Assembly: GCF_000430995.1 (NCBI RefSeq)
Contig: NZ_HF952039.1
Span: 65,407-129,406 of the forward strand
Length of the DNA: 64,000 bases
Direction of reading: 5' to 3'
From: Thermobrachium celere DSM 8682
GTDB taxonomy: Bacteria > Bacillota > Clostridia > Clostridiales > Caloramatoraceae
The notes below the pieces were generated by a model that saw only the letters and a list, made by a program, of their open reading frames with translations, made no database searches and was not told the DNA's origin. Shown here in pieces: positions 2,802-22,346 of this stretch; position 1 is the stretch's first letter; every line of letters starts with the position of its first letter. Made by a program: the position numbers and the translations under genes.

Positions 2802-3025
2802 TCTGTTCACCTCCTGTTTTGTTCTGTTATTATTAATTTAACCAAATCAACTTTTTATATTCAGGGAATTAGGTGTAATGCTACATGTATCTATTTAAAA
2901 ATACTTTTTTTGTTAAATAAAAATAACTTTAGAAATTATGTAATATTATTTATTTTAATTTATTTTTAATACTATAATTTTAATAATAGGGTCTTGATTT
3001 AATTAATTAAATTGGAGGGGTTTAT

Positions 3026-4117
3026 ATGGCAGTTAAAAAGATTGCTATTTTAACTGGTGGTGGGGATTGTCCAGGTCTTAACGCTGTCATTCGTGCAGTT
3101 ACACGAACAGCAATTTTAAAATATGGCTATGAAGTAATAGGCTACAGATATGGATATAGGGGTCTTTATAAAAACGACTTTATTCCTTTAACTCTTGATA
3201 CTGTTTCAGGAATACTACACAAGGGCGGAACGATACTTTACAGTTCAAATAAGGACAATTTGTTTGACTATCCAATTGAGGAAAATGGAAAAATAGTAAA
3301 GAAGGATGTTTCAGATGTTGCAATAGAAAATTTAAAAAAAGAAAATGTAGATGTACTTGTTGTAATAGGTGGAGATGGAACTTTAACAAGTGCACGCGAC
3401 TTTGCAAGAAAGGGAGTTAAAGTTATAGGTATCCCAAAAACAATAGATAATGATTTATATTCAACAGATTTAACCTTTGGTTTTTATTCAGCCATAGATG
3501 TTGCAACAGATGCACTTGACAGGCTCCATACAACAGCAGAATCACACCACAGAATTATGATACTTGAGGTTATGGGAAGAAATGCTGGTTGGATTGCTCT
3601 GTACTCTGGCATTGCAGGTTCTGCTGATGTAATTTTAATACCTGAAATTCCATATAGAATTGAAAAGATTGTAGAAAAGATTGAACAAAGAAAAGCACAA
3701 GGTAAACCATTTAGTATAATAGTAATTGCAGAGGGTGCAAAACCAAAGGATGGTAATGTAGTAATTAGTAAAATTGTTGAAGACAGTCCAGATCCAATAA
3801 GACTTGGAGGAATAGGTAATAAACTTGCAAGTGACTTAGAAAAATTAATAAAGAGCAATGAAATTAGATGTGCTGTGCTTGGACATATACAAAGGGGAGG
3901 AAACACTTCAACCTTTGATAGAATTCTTTCAACAAGATATGGAGTAGCTGCAGTTGAGCTTATACATCAAGAAAAGTTTGGAAATATGGTATGTCTTAAA
4001 GGAGATACTATAACCTATGATTCGCTTGAAAATGTTATAGGTAAAACTAAAAATGTTGATCCAGAAAGTGAGCTTGTACAAGTTGCCCGTTCAATAGGAA
4101 TAAGCTTTGGAGATTAA
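3026..4117 (+). CDS. pfkA: 6-phosphofructokinase (ATP/PPi family)
   Basis: Glycolytic phosphofructokinase converting fructose 6-phosphate to the 1,6-bisphosphate in the cytoplasm. The N-terminal GGGDCPGLNAVIR loop, IGGDGTL, PKTIDNDL (catalytic Asp), the MGRNAGWIAL substrate motif and GHIQRGG are all present. At 363 residues it is longer than the about 320-residue E. coli type. The residue that separates ATP from PPi enzymes in GGD(G/D) is Gly, as in ATP enzymes, but the second marker residue before TIDND is Lys, as in PPi enzymes. The phosphoryl donor is therefore not settled by sequence. The ATG has GGAGGGG upstream, and a TATAAT box at 2973-2978 may be the -10 element. Confidence 0.93.
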   Translation: MAVKKIAILTGGGDCPGLNAVIRAVTRTAILKYGYEVIGYRYGYRGLYKNDFIPLTLDTVSGILHKGGTILYSSNKDNLFDYPIEENGKIVKKDVSDVAIENLKKENVDVLVVIGGDGTLTSARDFARKGVKVIGIPKTIDNDLYSTDLTFGFYSAIDVATDALDRLHTTAESHHRIMILEVMGRNAGWIALYSGIAGSADVILIPEIPYRIEKIVEKIEQRKAQGKPFSIIVIAEGAKPKDGNVVISKIVEDSPDPIRLGGIGNKLASDLEKLIKSNEIRCAVLGHIQRGGNTSTFDRILSTRYGVAAVELIHQEKFGNMVCLKGDTITYDSLENVIGKTKNVDPESELVQVARSIGISFGD

Positions 4118-4132: not shown

Positions 4133-5467
4133 TTATATACCCAATATCATTGTAGCACAAGTGAAATATACTATTAATGCAACTGCATCCACTATTGTTG
4201 TAATAAGTGGACTTGCCATGATTGCTGGATCAAGCTTTAGTTTTCTTGCAATTATAGGAAGAACTCCTCCTACAATCTTTGCAAGCATAATTGTAATAAA
4301 TAGTGTTATCGTTACTGTAAGAGATACTTTGAAATTTATCTTTTCTATATAATAAATTCTTAAAAAGTTTATTAATGATAATACAACTCCTACTATGAAA
4401 GAAACCTTTAATTCTTTAAAAACAACTTTAAAGAAATCCTTTGTTTTAATCTCCTCAAGTGCAAGTCCTCTTATTACAAGTGTAGATGATTGAGAACCTG
4501 CATTACCACCCGTGTCCATAAGCATTGGTATAAAGGCTGCTAAAATTGCAACCGATTGGAGAACCTCTTCGTATCTTTGAATTATTCTTCCTGTAAATGT
4601 TGCAGAAATCATAAGAATTAAAAGCCATGCTATTCTATTTTTAGCTAAGGTGAACACACTTGCATCAAGATACTCTATATCAGATGGTTCCATACCTGCC
4701 ATCCTTTGAAAGTCCTCTGTATTCTCCTGTTCAATAACGTCTACAATATCGTCAATTGTAATAATTCCAACAAGTCTTTCCTCTTTATCTAAAACAGGAA
4801 TAGCAATTAAGTCATACTTTTTAAATAAACTTGCTACTACCTCTTGATCATCGTGAGTATGAACGTATATTACGTCTGTATTCATTATATCTTCAATCTT
4901 TCTATTTTCATCACATATAACAAGCTTTCTTAATGATATAATTCCCTCAAGCTTCCTACAGCTATCTATTACATAGCATGTATATATAGTTTCCTTTTCA
5001 ATGCCCGTCTCTTTTATATGCTTAATTGCTTCGCCAACAGTCATATCCTTTCTTAAATCAACATACTCTATTGTCATAAGGCTTCCTGCTGAGTTTTCTG
5101 GATAGTTTAAAAACTGATTAATTAAGGCTCTCTCTTCTTCCCTTGTGTTCTTTAATATTTTCTTTACAACATGTGCAGGCATCTCTTCAATAAAATCTAT
5201 CATATCGTCAAAATACATTTCGTTCATTATATGCTCTATTTCTTTATCTGTAATTGAATCAATTATATTTTTCTGTGCCTCATTTGAAAGATAAGCAAAA
5301 ACATCAACAGCTAAATCCTTGGGTAGAAGTCTAAATAATATAACTGCTTCACTTGTATCTACTTCTTCAATTATATCTGCTATATTTACTTCATTTAACT
5401 CTATAAGCTCACTTCTTAATTCTTTATAATTTTTGCTTTTCAAAAGCTCTAGAATTCTTTCATTCAT
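4133..5467 (-). CDS. mgtE: Magnesium transporter MgtE
   Basis: Mg2+ channel of the cytoplasmic membrane. Residues about 1-125 form the acidic MgtE N domain and about 130-250 a tandem CBS pair. About 275-444 form the five-helix membrane region, with the conserved pore motif PMLMDTGGNAGSQSST near residue 335. The 444-residue length is normal for the family. The ATG at 5467 follows a strong GGAGGGG site. Upstream on the same strand are an M-box Mg2+ riboswitch, its terminator and a short leader ORF that ends four bases before this ribosome binding site. Expression is therefore expected to fall when cytoplasmic Mg2+ is high. The gate in the CBS/N domains gives a second, protein-level control in this family. 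Confidence 0.96.
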   Translation of the reverse strand: MNERILELLKSKNYKELRSELIELNEVNIADIIEEVDTSEAVILFRLLPKDLAVDVFAYLSNEAQKNIIDSITDKEIEHIMNEMYFDDMIDFIEEMPAHVVKKILKNTREEERALINQFLNYPENSAGSLMTIEYVDLRKDMTVGEAIKHIKETGIEKETIYTCYVIDSCRKLEGIISLRKLVICDENRKIEDIMNTDVIYVHTHDDQEVVASLFKKYDLIAIPVLDKEERLVGIITIDDIVDVIEQENTEDFQRMAGMEPSDIEYLDASVFTLAKNRIAWLLILMISATFTGRIIQRYEEVLQSVAILAAFIPMLMDTGGNAGSQSSTLVIRGLALEEIKTKDFFKVVFKELKVSFIVGVVLSLINFLRIYYIEKINFKVSLTVTITLFITIMLAKIVGGVLPIIARKLKLDPAIMASPLITTIVDAVALIVYFTCATMILGI

Positions 5468-5483
5468 CCTTGACCCCTCCTTT

Positions 5484-5567
5484 TTAGAAGAGCCAATATC
5501 CTAAGTGACGGATATGGCTCTTTTTTATTAAGTTTTTATTTTCAGGAAAAGGACTACTAGAATCCAT
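5484..5567 (-). CDS. Possible leader peptide upstream of mgtE
   Basis: A 27-codon ORF lies between the M-box terminator and mgtE. Its ATG at 5567 has AGGGAG 8 nt upstream. The predicted peptide starts MDSSSPFPEN and ends HLGYWLF, and its TAA lies 4 nt before the mgtE ribosome binding site, which would allow translational coupling. The last third of the ORF lies in a hairpin (GAGCCATATCC pairing with GGATATTGGCTC, 5490-5520, one bulged T). Acidic and proline codons near the start recall the MgtL leader of enterobacterial mgtA, where such codons destabilise ribosomes at low Mg2+. That parallel is an inference. The ORF was found by reading and there is no homology support. Confidence 0.45.
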   Translation of the reverse strand: MDSSSPFPENKNLIKKSHIRHLGYWLF

Positions 5568-5593
5568 ATCCATCACTCCCTTCATTAATAAAA

Positions 5594-5622
5594 TAAAAAA
5601 ATCTCTACTCAACAGTAGAGAA
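5594..5622 (-). terminator. M-box expression platform terminator
   Basis: CTCTACT/AGTAGAG hairpin (5603-5620) followed on the minus strand by ATTTTTTTATTTT. The 3' part of the hairpin with its loop, TGTTGAG, is exactly complementary to CTCAACA in the 3' strand of the aptamer closing stem. A mutually exclusive antiterminator is therefore visible. Confidence 0.85.
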
Positions 5623-5637
5623 ATATACATTTCTTTA

Positions 5638-5782
5638 TTGTTGAGCTTTAGCACTACAAAGCGTAGACTCTTCGTCAGCTACATTAGAAATAACCTTCAC
5701 GATTATTTCTGTTAACCCATTGGAATCTCTCGATTTTTCTGGGCAGTAGCATATATCTTTGTAGGAGCCTCACCTAACAATC
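5638..5782 (-). ncRNA. M-box (ykoK leader) magnesium riboswitch
   Basis: The minus strand contains the hallmark M-box sequence GTTAGGTGAGGCTCCTACA, then ATATGCTACTGCCC, in the right order and spacing, with a closing stem TTGTT/AACAA at the two ends. In this riboswitch class Mg2+ compacts the aptamer, holds the closing stem and lets the terminator form, turning off the transporter gene. Here the stem, terminator and competing pairing are all readable, and the controlled gene is mgtE. A TATAAT box at 5806-5811 on the minus strand may be the -10 element. Confidence 0.95.
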
Positions 5783-5858
5783 GTATTTAATTTTATCCAT
5801 GTTATATTATATTAGATTTATTTCAATAATTCTAGTGTTTTATTAAAAAATTAACATT

Positions 5859-7578: not shown

Positions 7579-7630
7579 AGTCCATCAAAGCAAAAGACAC
7601 CAAAGGTACAAAATAAGTACCCTGCCTTTG

Positions 7631-7802
7631 CATGATAGCTCTCCACAAACTATGCGTTTGTGACAGTGCTGTATATATTCTATACAGCCCCAGCCATAGA
7701 GCCTTAAAGCATCAGCTCTACGCTTCGGCGGTGGCTCCTTTCCTATACCCTCATCGTGCTTGCCTCAGATATAGTACTCTTAGACACCGCGCCTCTATCA
7801 TG
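7631..7802 (-). ncRNA. Lysine (L-box) riboswitch aptamer
   Basis: Reading the minus strand gives, in order, CATGATAGAGGCGCG, AAGAGTA, GGAAAGGAGCCACCGCCGA, GGCTGGGGCTG and GAGCTATCATG. These are the conserved L-box blocks. The closing stem is CATGATAG (7795-7802) with CTATCATG (7631-7638). Lysine binding in this class promotes termination. The downstream gene is the NhaC-like permease, which ties it to lysine homeostasis. Confidence 0.95.
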
Positions 7803-7833
7803 TCTAACGCATATTCAATTTTTATTAATATGC

Positions 7834-7868: not shown

Positions 7869-8777
7869 TTATAAATTTTTTGCAATTTGTGCAGCAAGTT
7901 TTACATTGTTAAATACAAGTTGGATATTAGACTCAAGGCTCTTTCCACCTGTAATATCCTTAACCTTTGCAAGTAAAAATGGAGTTGATTCTTTTCCCTT
8001 TATTCCCTTCTCTTCTGCTTCCTTTAATGCATCCTCTATAGCTCTATTTATAGTATCATAATCCATTTCATATTCCTCAGGAATTGGATTTGCAACAACG
8101 ACTCCACCTTTTAAATTAAGTTCCCATTTAACCTTAAGCATTTTTGCTATCTCCTCTGGTGTATCTAGTCTGTAATCAACCTTAAATCCACTTCTTCTTG
8201 TATAGAAGGCTGGAAGCTCATCTGTTCTATATCCTACAACTGGAACTCCAAAAGTTTCAAGGTATTCAAGAGTAAGACCTAAATCAAGTATTGATTTAGC
8301 ACCTGCGCAAACCACTGCAACATTTGTATTTGCAAGCTCTTGAAGATCTGCTGAAATATCAAAGGTCTCTTGTGCACCTCTGTGTACTCCACCTATTCCA
8401 CCAGTTGCAAACACCTTAATTCCTGCAAGTGCTGCTATAATCATAGTTGATGCAACAGTTGTTGCTCCATCTAATCCCTTTGCAACTATATATGGGATGT
8501 CTCTTCTACTTACCTTTACTATTTCTCTTCCCTTTTTACCTAGGTATTCTATCTCTTCCTTGGTTAAACCTGCCTTTAGCTTTCCACCTATGATTGCTAT
8601 TGTTGCTGGAACTGCTCCATTTTGTCTTACTATCTCCTCAACCTTAAGTGCTGTTTCAACATTTTGTGGATATGGCATACCATGAGATATTATTGTAGAT
8701 TCAAGTGCTACAACAGGCTTTCCATTTTCAAGTGCCTCTTTTACTTCATTTGAAAGAACCAAATAATCCTTTAACAT
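7869..8777 (-). CDS. psuG: Pseudouridine-5'-phosphate glycosidase
   Basis: Cleaves pseudouridine 5'-phosphate to uracil and ribose 5-phosphate, the second step of pseudouridine catabolism. The 302-residue protein shows the family motifs [17 protein letters not shown] at the N-terminus (metal and substrate site), [24 protein letters not shown] near residue 120 and [15 protein letters not shown] near 190. Length is typical. Its start overlaps the end of the upstream psuK-like kinase by 7 bp, so the two genes are translationally coupled and act in series. The ATG at 8777 follows GGAGTT within the kinase coding region. Confidence 0.95.
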
Positions 8778-9862
8778 AATCCCAACTCCTTTTGTTTATC
8801 TTTAACATTTTGTACTGTTAACCTATCTGAAATAGTATCCTTTGAAGAAAGCGTTATTGCTGCTGCCGACATAGCAAATTTAACTGTTTCTTCAATTGTA
8901 AATTCATTTAAATATCCATATACTAACCCAGCCAAAAAGGCATCTCCTGCACCAGTTGCATTAACTACCTCAACCTTTGGCATTTTTATTATGTGTATTC
9001 CTTTTTTGCTTCCATAAATCACACCTTTTTCTCCAAGGCTTATAAATACATTTCTAACTCCCTTATTTAAAAGGACTTCGCAGGCCTTTTTACCTTTATC
9101 CACACTATCAACACAAATTCCTGTTAAAACTTCTGCTTCATAAATATTTGGTTTTACTGTGTGAAAATTACCTATAATGTCCCTTACCTTCTCTGCCTTT
9201 GCTGTTGATACAGTATCTAAAAACAAAATCAAATCATCAAATTCAGTTAAAACTTCAATTGCTTCCTTTGGAATATTAGTATCTACAACACAAAGCCTTG
9301 AGCCCTCTATTATCTTCCTTTTAGCCTTAATGTAATCAACATTGATTTTTTCACATATGTCCATACAGGATAGAGCAACTTCCATATCTCCCTTTTCATT
9401 TAAAATTGAAAGATATGTGGATGTATATTCTCCTGATAATACTAAACTGTGGGACATATCAATTCCTATATTTTTAGAATGCTCAAGTATTTTCTGACCA
9501 TACACATCTTCTCCTACGGCTGTTATCAACTTAACATTAACATTAAGCCTTGCTAAATTTTCTGCAACATTTCTTCCAACGCCACCTAAGGACATGTTCA
9601 ATTGACCTGGGTTTGAATCTTTAAACTTAAGCTTTGATTTTGGGAACCCCTGTATGTCTACATTTGCCCCACCTATAACCAAAACATATTCGTCCTCATT
9701 TACAATATATCCTTTACCTAAAATATATCCCTTTTTCATTAGATTTGTTATGTGAACTGCCACTGAAGCCCTTGCTATATTGAGCTTTGATGCTATTTCT
9801 TCTTGAGTTATAAATGGATTTTTCTTAATAAGTTCAAGTATTTCTCTCTCTCTATTCGTCAT
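8771..9862 (-). CDS. psuK: Pseudouridine kinase with N-terminal winged-helix domain
   Basis: PfkB-type kinase that phosphorylates pseudouridine for PsuG. Residues about 1-55 form a MarR/ArsR-like winged helix ([21 protein letters not shown]). Residues about 60-363 are the ribokinase fold, with [13 protein letters not shown] and [14 protein letters not shown] near the start and the anion-hole/catalytic motif [14 protein letters not shown] near residue 302. The HTH-kinase fusion suggests that the enzyme also regulates its own operon in response to substrate. An inverted repeat and a 12-bp direct repeat sit directly upstream. The ATG has AGGTG 6 nt before it. It is the first gene of a psuK-psuG operon. 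Confidence 0.9.
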
Positions 9863-20586: not shown

Positions 20587-22346
20587 TCAAGTAGGAGCTT
20601 AATATATTTTATCCAGCAACCTCTCACACCATCGTACGTACCGGTCTGGTACACGGCAGTTCATTAGTTTACATACATTTTAGAATACTGTGAAATTAGG
20701 CTTTTATATCCTTACTTATTAAAATATTCGTTAATTAGAGTTGTTGATAGAATGTAACTATTTGCTATATGTCAATATCCTTTTCGGGTATTGGCATATA
20801 TTTTTGCAAAATATGGTTTCATTCCTAATCTTATCAGATTCCTATCCCTTTTTCTGAACTTTTTCCATAGTTTCCATTCACACATTCTTTATATTCTTAT
20901 CTATTGCTCTAATTCTTTCATATGGGTCTTTGCTTTCGCAAGTCCGAAGTAATTCACCCATCCAATTATTATTTGATTAAATTTATTTATTCTCTCTTAT
21001 ATGCTTATCGGTTTCCTTCGGCTAGTTATATCTCTTATCTTGTTTTTAAATTCTTTTGTTTTCCTCTACTATTCTTATGTTTAGTTCTCCTTGGACTATA
21101 TTATAAGAAAATCCAAGAAATTTTCTTTTCCATAGTCTATCAACTACACTTTTCTCTTTGTTTACCTTTAATTTGAGATTCTTTTCTATGTAATCAGTTA
21201 CACTCTCTTAAACTCTAAGTCCTGCCCTTTCACTTTTAACAAATATATTGCAGTCATCCGAATATCTGCAGAACTTATGTCCTCTCTTTTCTAACTCTTT
21301 GTCTAAATCGTCTAGGATTATATTTACTAAACTCATCAGGATATCGTAATTTACTTTGTCAAAGAATTTCTCTAGGTCTAATCTACCACCCATATATATC
21401 CTTCATTTATGTACTCATTTGCTTTCTTTACAGCATCTTTTGCACTCCTATTTGGTCTGAAACCATAACTGTTTTCTGAAAAGCCTTTATCAAATATTAA
21501 TGTTAATTCTTAAGCTATCGCTTGTTGAATTAACCTATCAAGAACAGTTGGTATCCCAAGTAGTCAAACTCCACTATTGTGTTTTGGTATCTCAACTCTT
21601 ATAACTGGCTGTAGTTTGTATTTACCTTGCAATATTGCTAATTTTATTTCTGGCCACTCTTGTATTAGAAATCCCCGACGTTCATAGGTTGTCATTCTAT
21701 CTATTCAATGGCTACCTTTATTAGCAATTACCCTCTTGTACGCTCTTTGTATATTTTCTCTTGAGAGTAGTCTTTCTAAGGTTCCATATTCCTCTGCACA
21801 GGTTTCTCCTTCTAAGACTGCCGGAGATACTCTATACACTCCTTGTTTATCTTCATGTTCCACATTATTCTCAGCAAGATAACCTGTATATTCAGTTTTC
21901 TGCAATCTTTGCATATCTCTCGAAGTCTTCAAAATTTAAAACCTCCTAATATTCAGTCCTTCCTATGATAAAGCGTATCTCATGGTACTATGACCTCTGC
22001 TGACTTCTAATAGTTCAACTGTCCAACATTTAATAGGTTACCACTTTGAAAGTTCATTCTTTTAGTGATGTATCTGTTAGACCTCCCCAGGTAAGAGCAA
22101 CCACCTTCGTCCAATATACTCGCCACATTTACTGCATGAAGTTCGGGTAATATTGGACTTTGTTTTGTAAACTCATCCACCTCAAAACAGTCTCGTATGT
22201 AGTTCTTGTTCATCGAGCCGGGACTTTGCCTCCGGCTTCCTTCAGATTCCACCTTACGATAGGCACCCTTGCCATTTAACTAGTAGTTACCACACCAAAC
22301 CTATAGGGGGCTTTCACCGCCAAGCTGTCGACCATGCCGGGCACAC
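20586..22346 (-). mobile_element. Degenerate group IIC intron
   Basis: On the minus strand the element begins GTGTGCCCGGCATGG and later reads GGAATCTGAAGGAAGC. It ends with a domain V-like GTACGTACGATGGTGTGAGAGG, then a domain VI-like stem and CCTACTTGAT at 20586. These are the landmarks of Oceanobacillus-type group IIC introns. As is typical of class C, the 5' junction lies two bases after the T tract of a Rho-independent terminator (that of the sspH gene). The element is about 1.76 kb. Its reverse transcriptase ORF is broken, and two substitutions fall in or beside the domain V catalytic triad region, so it is probably inactive. Confidence 0.9.
20740..21932 (-). pseudogene. Broken group II intron reverse transcriptase/maturase
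   Basis: Reading on from TTGAAGACTTCGAGAG at 21932, RT sequence is recognisable in pieces: the N-terminal LERLLSRENIQRAYKRVIANKGSH, then MTTYERRGFLIQEWPEIK, YGFRPNRSAKDA, DLEKFFDKVNYDILMS and RYSDDCNIFVKSERAG. Maturase-like LWKRKFLGFS follows, then ever more stops. The frame is interrupted by stops after KGSH, HNSGV and QQAIA and by a one-base deletion just before DLEKFF. About 60 codons between DILMSLV and NIILDDLDKEL, including the TPQGGPLSPLL block, are missing. YSDD replaces the common YADD. The right-hand limit given is approximate. Confidence 0.9.

Follow-up and report, generated by a model that had tools for sequence, protein, structure and literature searches.

Translational attenuators of the ermC type are built from four pairing segments, with the Shine-Dalgarno (SD) sequence of the target gene in segment 4. 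For mgtQ of Salmonella, the part played by Asp2 and Glu5 and the logic by which helices 1:2 and 3:4 alternate with helix 2:3 were tested by mutation (PMC8092293), and intrinsic ribosome destabilisation by acidic N-termini was reported in E. coli and yeast (PMC9718836). The enterobacterial leader ORFs MgtL (mgtA) and CorL (corA) also lie before Mg2+ transporter genes, with a stem over the SD of the leader ORF (PMC11552253). We analysed a window of 64,000 nucleotides of the genome of Thermobrachium celere DSM 8682, in which an upstream ORF (uORF) between an M-box and mgtE had been proposed to act as an MgtL-like Mg2+ sensor.

The transporter gene mgtE (4133..5467, minus strand) codes for an Mg2+ transporter of 444 aa with PF03448, CBS and PF01769 domains over cut-off, whose nearest relatives come from Caloramator (93-94%). 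The uORF is located on the same strand (5484..5567) and comprises 27 codons and a TAA (MDSSSPFPENKNLIKKSHIRHLGYWLF). Its length, its good ribosome binding site and its start MDSSSPFPEN agreed with the original prediction, the SD being AAGGGAG (5576..5582, minus strand; conserved in relatives) with 8 nt between its end and the ATG. The distance from the end of the ORF to the mgtE ribosome binding site, given earlier as 4 nt, was corrected to 2 nt (stop at 5486-5484, SD AGGAGG at 5481-5476). An in-frame second ATG at 5573 was inconsistently kept among relatives and was rejected as the start for this reason, so that 5567 is the likely one. The beginning of the window peptide, MDSSSPFPE, has an acidic codon 2 with proline and acidic residues soon after (D2, P6, P8, E9), as in mgtQ-type leaders; it is only mildly acidic, which counts against its reading as an Mg2+ attenuator. 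No known Rfam family at gathering score covered the uORF region, either in the window or in the loci tested. Upstream of the uORF, the M-box (ykoK) Mg2+ riboswitch aptamer named in the original prediction was recovered at full length (5626..5788, minus strand; RF00380, 140.8 bits vs. a gathering score of 44), and a consensus scan placed a terminator-like hairpin with a T-run on its 3' side (5602..5621, minus strand), a position that would be typical of an M-box expression platform.

Other features were seen elsewhere on the minus strand of the window. A lysine riboswitch (RF00168, 130.1 bits; 7628-7805) precedes the gene of a 545-aa antiporter-like membrane protein (7540-5903), which we take from the look of its sequence to belong to the NhaC family. 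Two adjacent genes (7869-9862), which by eye we presume to code for a pseudouridine-5'-phosphate glycosidase and an HTH/PfkB sugar kinase, are likely a pseudouridine breakdown pair. Matches to two group II intron domains (RF02001 and RF01998) at 21956-22263 indicated a group II intron or a remnant of one.

Conservation of the uORF was examined in 80 loci with related mgtE genes obtained from one scan of bacterial genomes, 76 of which had enough upstream DNA. An SD-preceded ORF starting M[DE]..P within 350 nt upstream of mgtE was present in 51 of the 76 clostridial leaders vs. 0.86 ± 0.97 in dinucleotide shuffles, a ratio whose exact value is optimistic, the criterion having been chosen after examples had been seen; the excess is nevertheless far beyond what such a post-hoc choice could explain. 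The same search of the antisense strand (0/76) and of control windows (0/71) found no such ORF. Among 100 non-redundant uORFs the consensus start was M-D-x-x-P-x-P. Asp (94%) or Glu (6%) occupied position 2, where GA at the codon was itself a selection criterion for the start, and Pro5 (89%) was the most conserved unselected residue, encoded by all four proline codons; Pro7 reached 48%, Ser, Pro or Thr prevailed at position 3, and Gly, Ser, Val or Asp at position 4. Since codons 3-8 lie outside all the helices described below, RNA pairing is not the cause of the conserved peptide start, and the comparison of relatives indicates that this start is under selection. The reading frame was open into region 2 of the leader RNA in 25 of 26 aligned leaders, picked for having the uORF (7 and 2 for the other frames), the exception being L042, where the stop precedes region 2. 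Start, frame and stop zone are thus kept over much of Clostridia, which is the conservation in relatives that the original prediction had named as its check. The uORF is not universal, because only 4 of 29 phylum-wide mgtE leaders presented a candidate (0.39 in shuffles). A distant version with MDTVPG or MDAVPG uORFs was observed upstream of mgtE at eight loci (L069, L071, L074, L075, L078, L079, L081, and L084); these leaders carry the repeated motifs GTTCCC, GGGAAC, CGTTCCC, and GGAACGC in a very regular 1-2-3-4 arrangement, the last of them at the mgtE start.

The conserved N-terminus could also be that of a functional small protein, with the RNA structures as incidental features. Beyond position 7 no residue dominated in the 100 uORFs, and the 3' part of the ORF follows covarying RNA helices, so that we consider this explanation highly improbable. 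Region 1 of the leader (5564..5576; GTGATGGATATGG; all segments on the minus strand) contains the end of the uORF SD and the start codon, and pairs with region 2 (5505..5517; CCATATCCGTCAC), the latter assigned from duplex z score, covariation and folding. The 5' arm of hairpin 2:3 (5510..5522) overlaps region 2, and its 3' arm constitutes region 3 (5488..5501; covariation and folding). The anti-SD part of region 3 (5486..5496; TTGGCTCTTCT) pairs in helix 3:4 with region 4 (5470..5480; GGAGGGGTCAA), made up of the mgtE SD and the following bases and assigned from pairing, a swap test and folding. Helix 1:2 therefore covers the SD and AUG of the uORF and helix 3:4 covers the mgtE SD; the helices are mutually exclusive and the target SD lies in segment 4, as in an attenuator of the mgtQ type. 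The strong hairpin that had been noticed in the 3' part of the ORF corresponds to 2:3 (arms 5522-5510 and 5501-5488), and the pairing of the uORF start and the anti-SD helix had been overlooked.

Covariation was analysed in a MAFFT alignment of 26 leaders. With sequence relatedness not fully removed by the covariation, swap and z controls, helix 1:2 had 91.3% of its cells paired (56% or less in slid versions) and 35 cells with double changes vs. 10.9 ± 2.5 in shuffles, and helix 2:3 showed double changes in 11 of its 12 pairs (36 cells vs. 15.2 ± 2.7). The mean z score of the 1:2 duplex against shuffles was -3.0 over 57 leaders and reached -7.2 in the window. The register of helix 3:4 shifts by one base, and region 3 was tested with its own vs. 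swapped region 4: the own partner gave a mean of -13.1 kcal/mol vs. -10.07 ± 0.41 for permuted partners, a value that none of the 5000 permutations matched, and a set with less redundancy (n = 23) agreed. Pairing of 3:4 or 1:2 was poor in a few members (L018, L022, and L019), which, like the early stop in L042, counts against an attenuator of this type. The free window RNA was predicted to fold as 1:2 plus 3:4 (-40.0 kcal/mol) with both SDs hidden, and forcing 2:3 gave a predicted -38.2 kcal/mol. When region 1 was masked, mimicking an initiating or early ribosome, the predicted fold switched to 2:3, with the mgtE SD still weakly paired with early mgtE codons, and for this reason the energies alone are no proof of SD release. 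Taken together, the comparisons strongly support the anatomy of the element as a uORF with competing helices.

The stop of the uORF falls within about 15 nt of mgtE in the window and in many relatives, as would be expected if ribosomes ending the uORF beside the mgtE SD re-initiated on mgtE and uORF translation thereby turned the gene on. The stop is 60-210 nt away in other members, and such coupling would need neither the covarying helix 1:2 nor the conserved Asp/Pro start, which makes it a quite improbable account. The reading we prefer, an attenuator in which helix 3:4 controls access to the mgtE SD, uses both, and the conservation of that helix points to an output at the level of translation.

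A covariance model built from helices 1:2 and 3:4 recovered this leader and no other within its own genome (103.8 bits; the next match had 18) and matched 49 of 391 Clostridia genomes. The next gene at the 49 sites examined coded for MgtE in 47 cases and for CorA in two (by PF01544). Phylum-wide matches at E ≤0.001 were located beside MgtE or probable CorA (L147 and L150, weak 20% tblastn matches), and those weaker than E 0.001 are in part due to chance. For an ORF that had arisen by chance within the M-box leader, nothing speaks beyond its shortness, and conservation, covariation and transporter specificity speak against it; with 51 of 76 leaders vs. 0.86 in shuffles and 49 of 49 model sites before Mg2+ transporter genes, we rejected this explanation as having a negligible probability, and the ORF is confirmed as real.

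Links to corA also appeared in material collected separately from the model. MD.DP uORFs were present at 6 of 30 independently collected clostridial corA loci, and the region 1 duplex was found in most corA uORFs. The acidic/proline uORFs observed upstream of clostridial corA, mostly MD.DP, belong to loci L134 (1473-1879, minus strand), L137, L170, L175, L178, L181, L182, and L185, four of which (L134, L170, L182, and L185) have an M-box too. Among seven true MgtA loci (P-type ATPases) of Clostridia there was one weak uORF candidate (L190). In the L144 group, the reading frame immediately downstream of the uORF runs into an MgtE-like protein. Locus L093 contains two copies of the uORF module on the minus strand (1501-1642 and 3002-3142), about 1.5 kb apart and each beside an MgtE match.

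The element was read as an Mg2+ device mainly because MgtE and CorA have Mg2+ transport in common without being related as proteins, and a conserved uORF with three helices before two unrelated kinds of importer is probably a ribosome-based switch for low Mg2+. The same attenuator might instead respond to charged tRNA-Pro, EF-P activity or a general slowdown of translation through the conserved prolines, of which Pro5 is so well kept; in Salmonella, leader-ORF proline codons do respond to charged tRNA-Pro (PMC8092293). Such a signal would leave unexplained why the module occurs only before Mg2+ transporter genes, which belong to two families with no relationship; Asp or Glu at codon 2 plays no part in tRNA-Pro sensing, and the prolines are mostly single (P-x-P) rather than consecutive; accordingly we hold it unlikely, though less so than the other alternatives considered.

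The distribution of the M-box differed among members of the family. It was over the gathering score at 18 of 47 class-wide uORF-module sites tested (about 40%) and also at most phylum-level mgtE matches tested, and uORF-positive loci without an M-box within 1.5 kb included Geosporobacter L014 and Clostridium L017, L018, and L023. The uORF switch therefore stands by itself in some members and forms a second layer in others. The two-layer Mg2+ switch put forward in the original prediction holds for part of the family and fits only that part, because the M-box is absent from the majority of modules tested. In two further loci (L020, ~1187-1300, and L024, ~479-590) the M-box precedes a uORF that begins MEPDG or MEPEG. 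The SD/AUG region of this uORF and a downstream arm with TTTTTT at its end are complementary over ~17 bases; this looks like the same switch idea with a transcription terminator as a possible output.

We regard it as likely that leader ORF and RNA together act as a translational attenuator with four segments, which controls an Mg2+ importer and works like mgtQ and formally like ermC. From the arrangement of the segments we infer that ribosomes translate the uORF, that Mg2+ is what is sensed, and which way mgtE expression would change. With sufficient Mg2+, the ribosome would pass the M-D-x-x-P-x-P start and read the entire uORF, region 1 would be cleared, helices 1:2 and 3:4 would re-form, and translation of mgtE would be low. 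At low Mg2+, the ribosome would be destabilised or stalled on the first 5-8 codons, so that region 1 would stay covered and region 2 untraversed, 2:3 would form, and the mgtE SD would become free. In the window, where the module lies behind an M-box with its own terminator, transcription elongation would be the first step affected by Mg2+ and translation the second.

If this is true, sensing of Mg2+ through failure of the translating ribosome would be recurrent rather than an enterobacterial peculiarity, occurring in Gram-positive anaerobes before two other transporter families. A single gene would also be served by two physically different Mg2+ sensors, an Mg2+-binding RNA and the Mg2+-needing ribosome, and species with and without the M-box would provide a natural series for what each layer adds. 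Unannotated leader ORFs of this kind are probably present in many clostridial genomes.

The full-text literature searched, which covered few subscription journals and no preprints, so that absence is no proof, did not describe any uORF before mgtE or corA in Clostridia, and the original prediction likewise knew of no Firmicute M-box followed by such an ORF; a Ribo-seq paper on S. aureus does not mention mgtE (PMC13009471). The "small ORF" of PMC4072509 was rejected as the same element, since it concerns a different, Nramp-linked gene. The mgtE motif SRC-65-1 is likewise a structured mgtE leader, but it was reported from Thioalkalivibrio only, and as a riboswitch candidate rather than a uORF (PMC11109978). 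The nearest M-box precedent is pe20 of M. tuberculosis, where an M-box also precedes a conserved small upstream ORF. It works differently: there the M-box controls the uORF via a translational platform with Rho termination (PMC12810186), whereas in the present leader a terminator-like hairpin comes after the M-box, and the uORF is equipped with a separate attenuator that is also found where there is no M-box.

As a whole, the original interpretation is supported, uORF translation and the response to Mg2+ standing as predictions from the sequence. The part concerning an MgtL-like Mg2+ sensor holds in that the ORF is conserved and tied to two Mg2+ transporter families, and mgtQ proved to be the closer model. 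Like MgtL and CorL, the element is a leader ORF before an Mg2+ transporter gene with a stem (helix 1:2) over the uORF SD, and mgtL shares its acidic/proline-containing peptide; the output of MgtL and CorL is mainly Rho-dependent termination (PMC11552253), in contrast with the conserved output helix on the transporter SD found here. On balance we favour the view that this is an undescribed attenuator class spread across Clostridia and independent of MgtL and MgtQ, often behind an M-box, in which the Mg2+ dependence of the ribosome on M-D-x-x-P-x-P would control translation of MgtE or CorA. With ermC-type leaders it has in common the four segments and the target SD in segment 4, the ermC leader peptide being stalled by antibiotic and the start here presumably being sensitive to Mg2+. 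With mgtQ, located between mgtC and mgtB of Salmonella, it shares a short ORF in which Asp2 has a proline and an acidic residue close to it, and the exclusive choice between 1:2 plus 3:4 and 2:3, with 3:4 hiding the SD of an Mg2+ transporter gene (PMC8092293). The mgtQ ORF has 8 codons, lies between two genes of an operon and serves the P-type ATPase MgtB in enterobacteria (PMC8092293), whereas the present element has about 27 codons, precedes MgtE or CorA in Clostridia and often stands behind an M-box; 8 codons being too short for a homology test, the likeness we propose is one of working and not of common descent.
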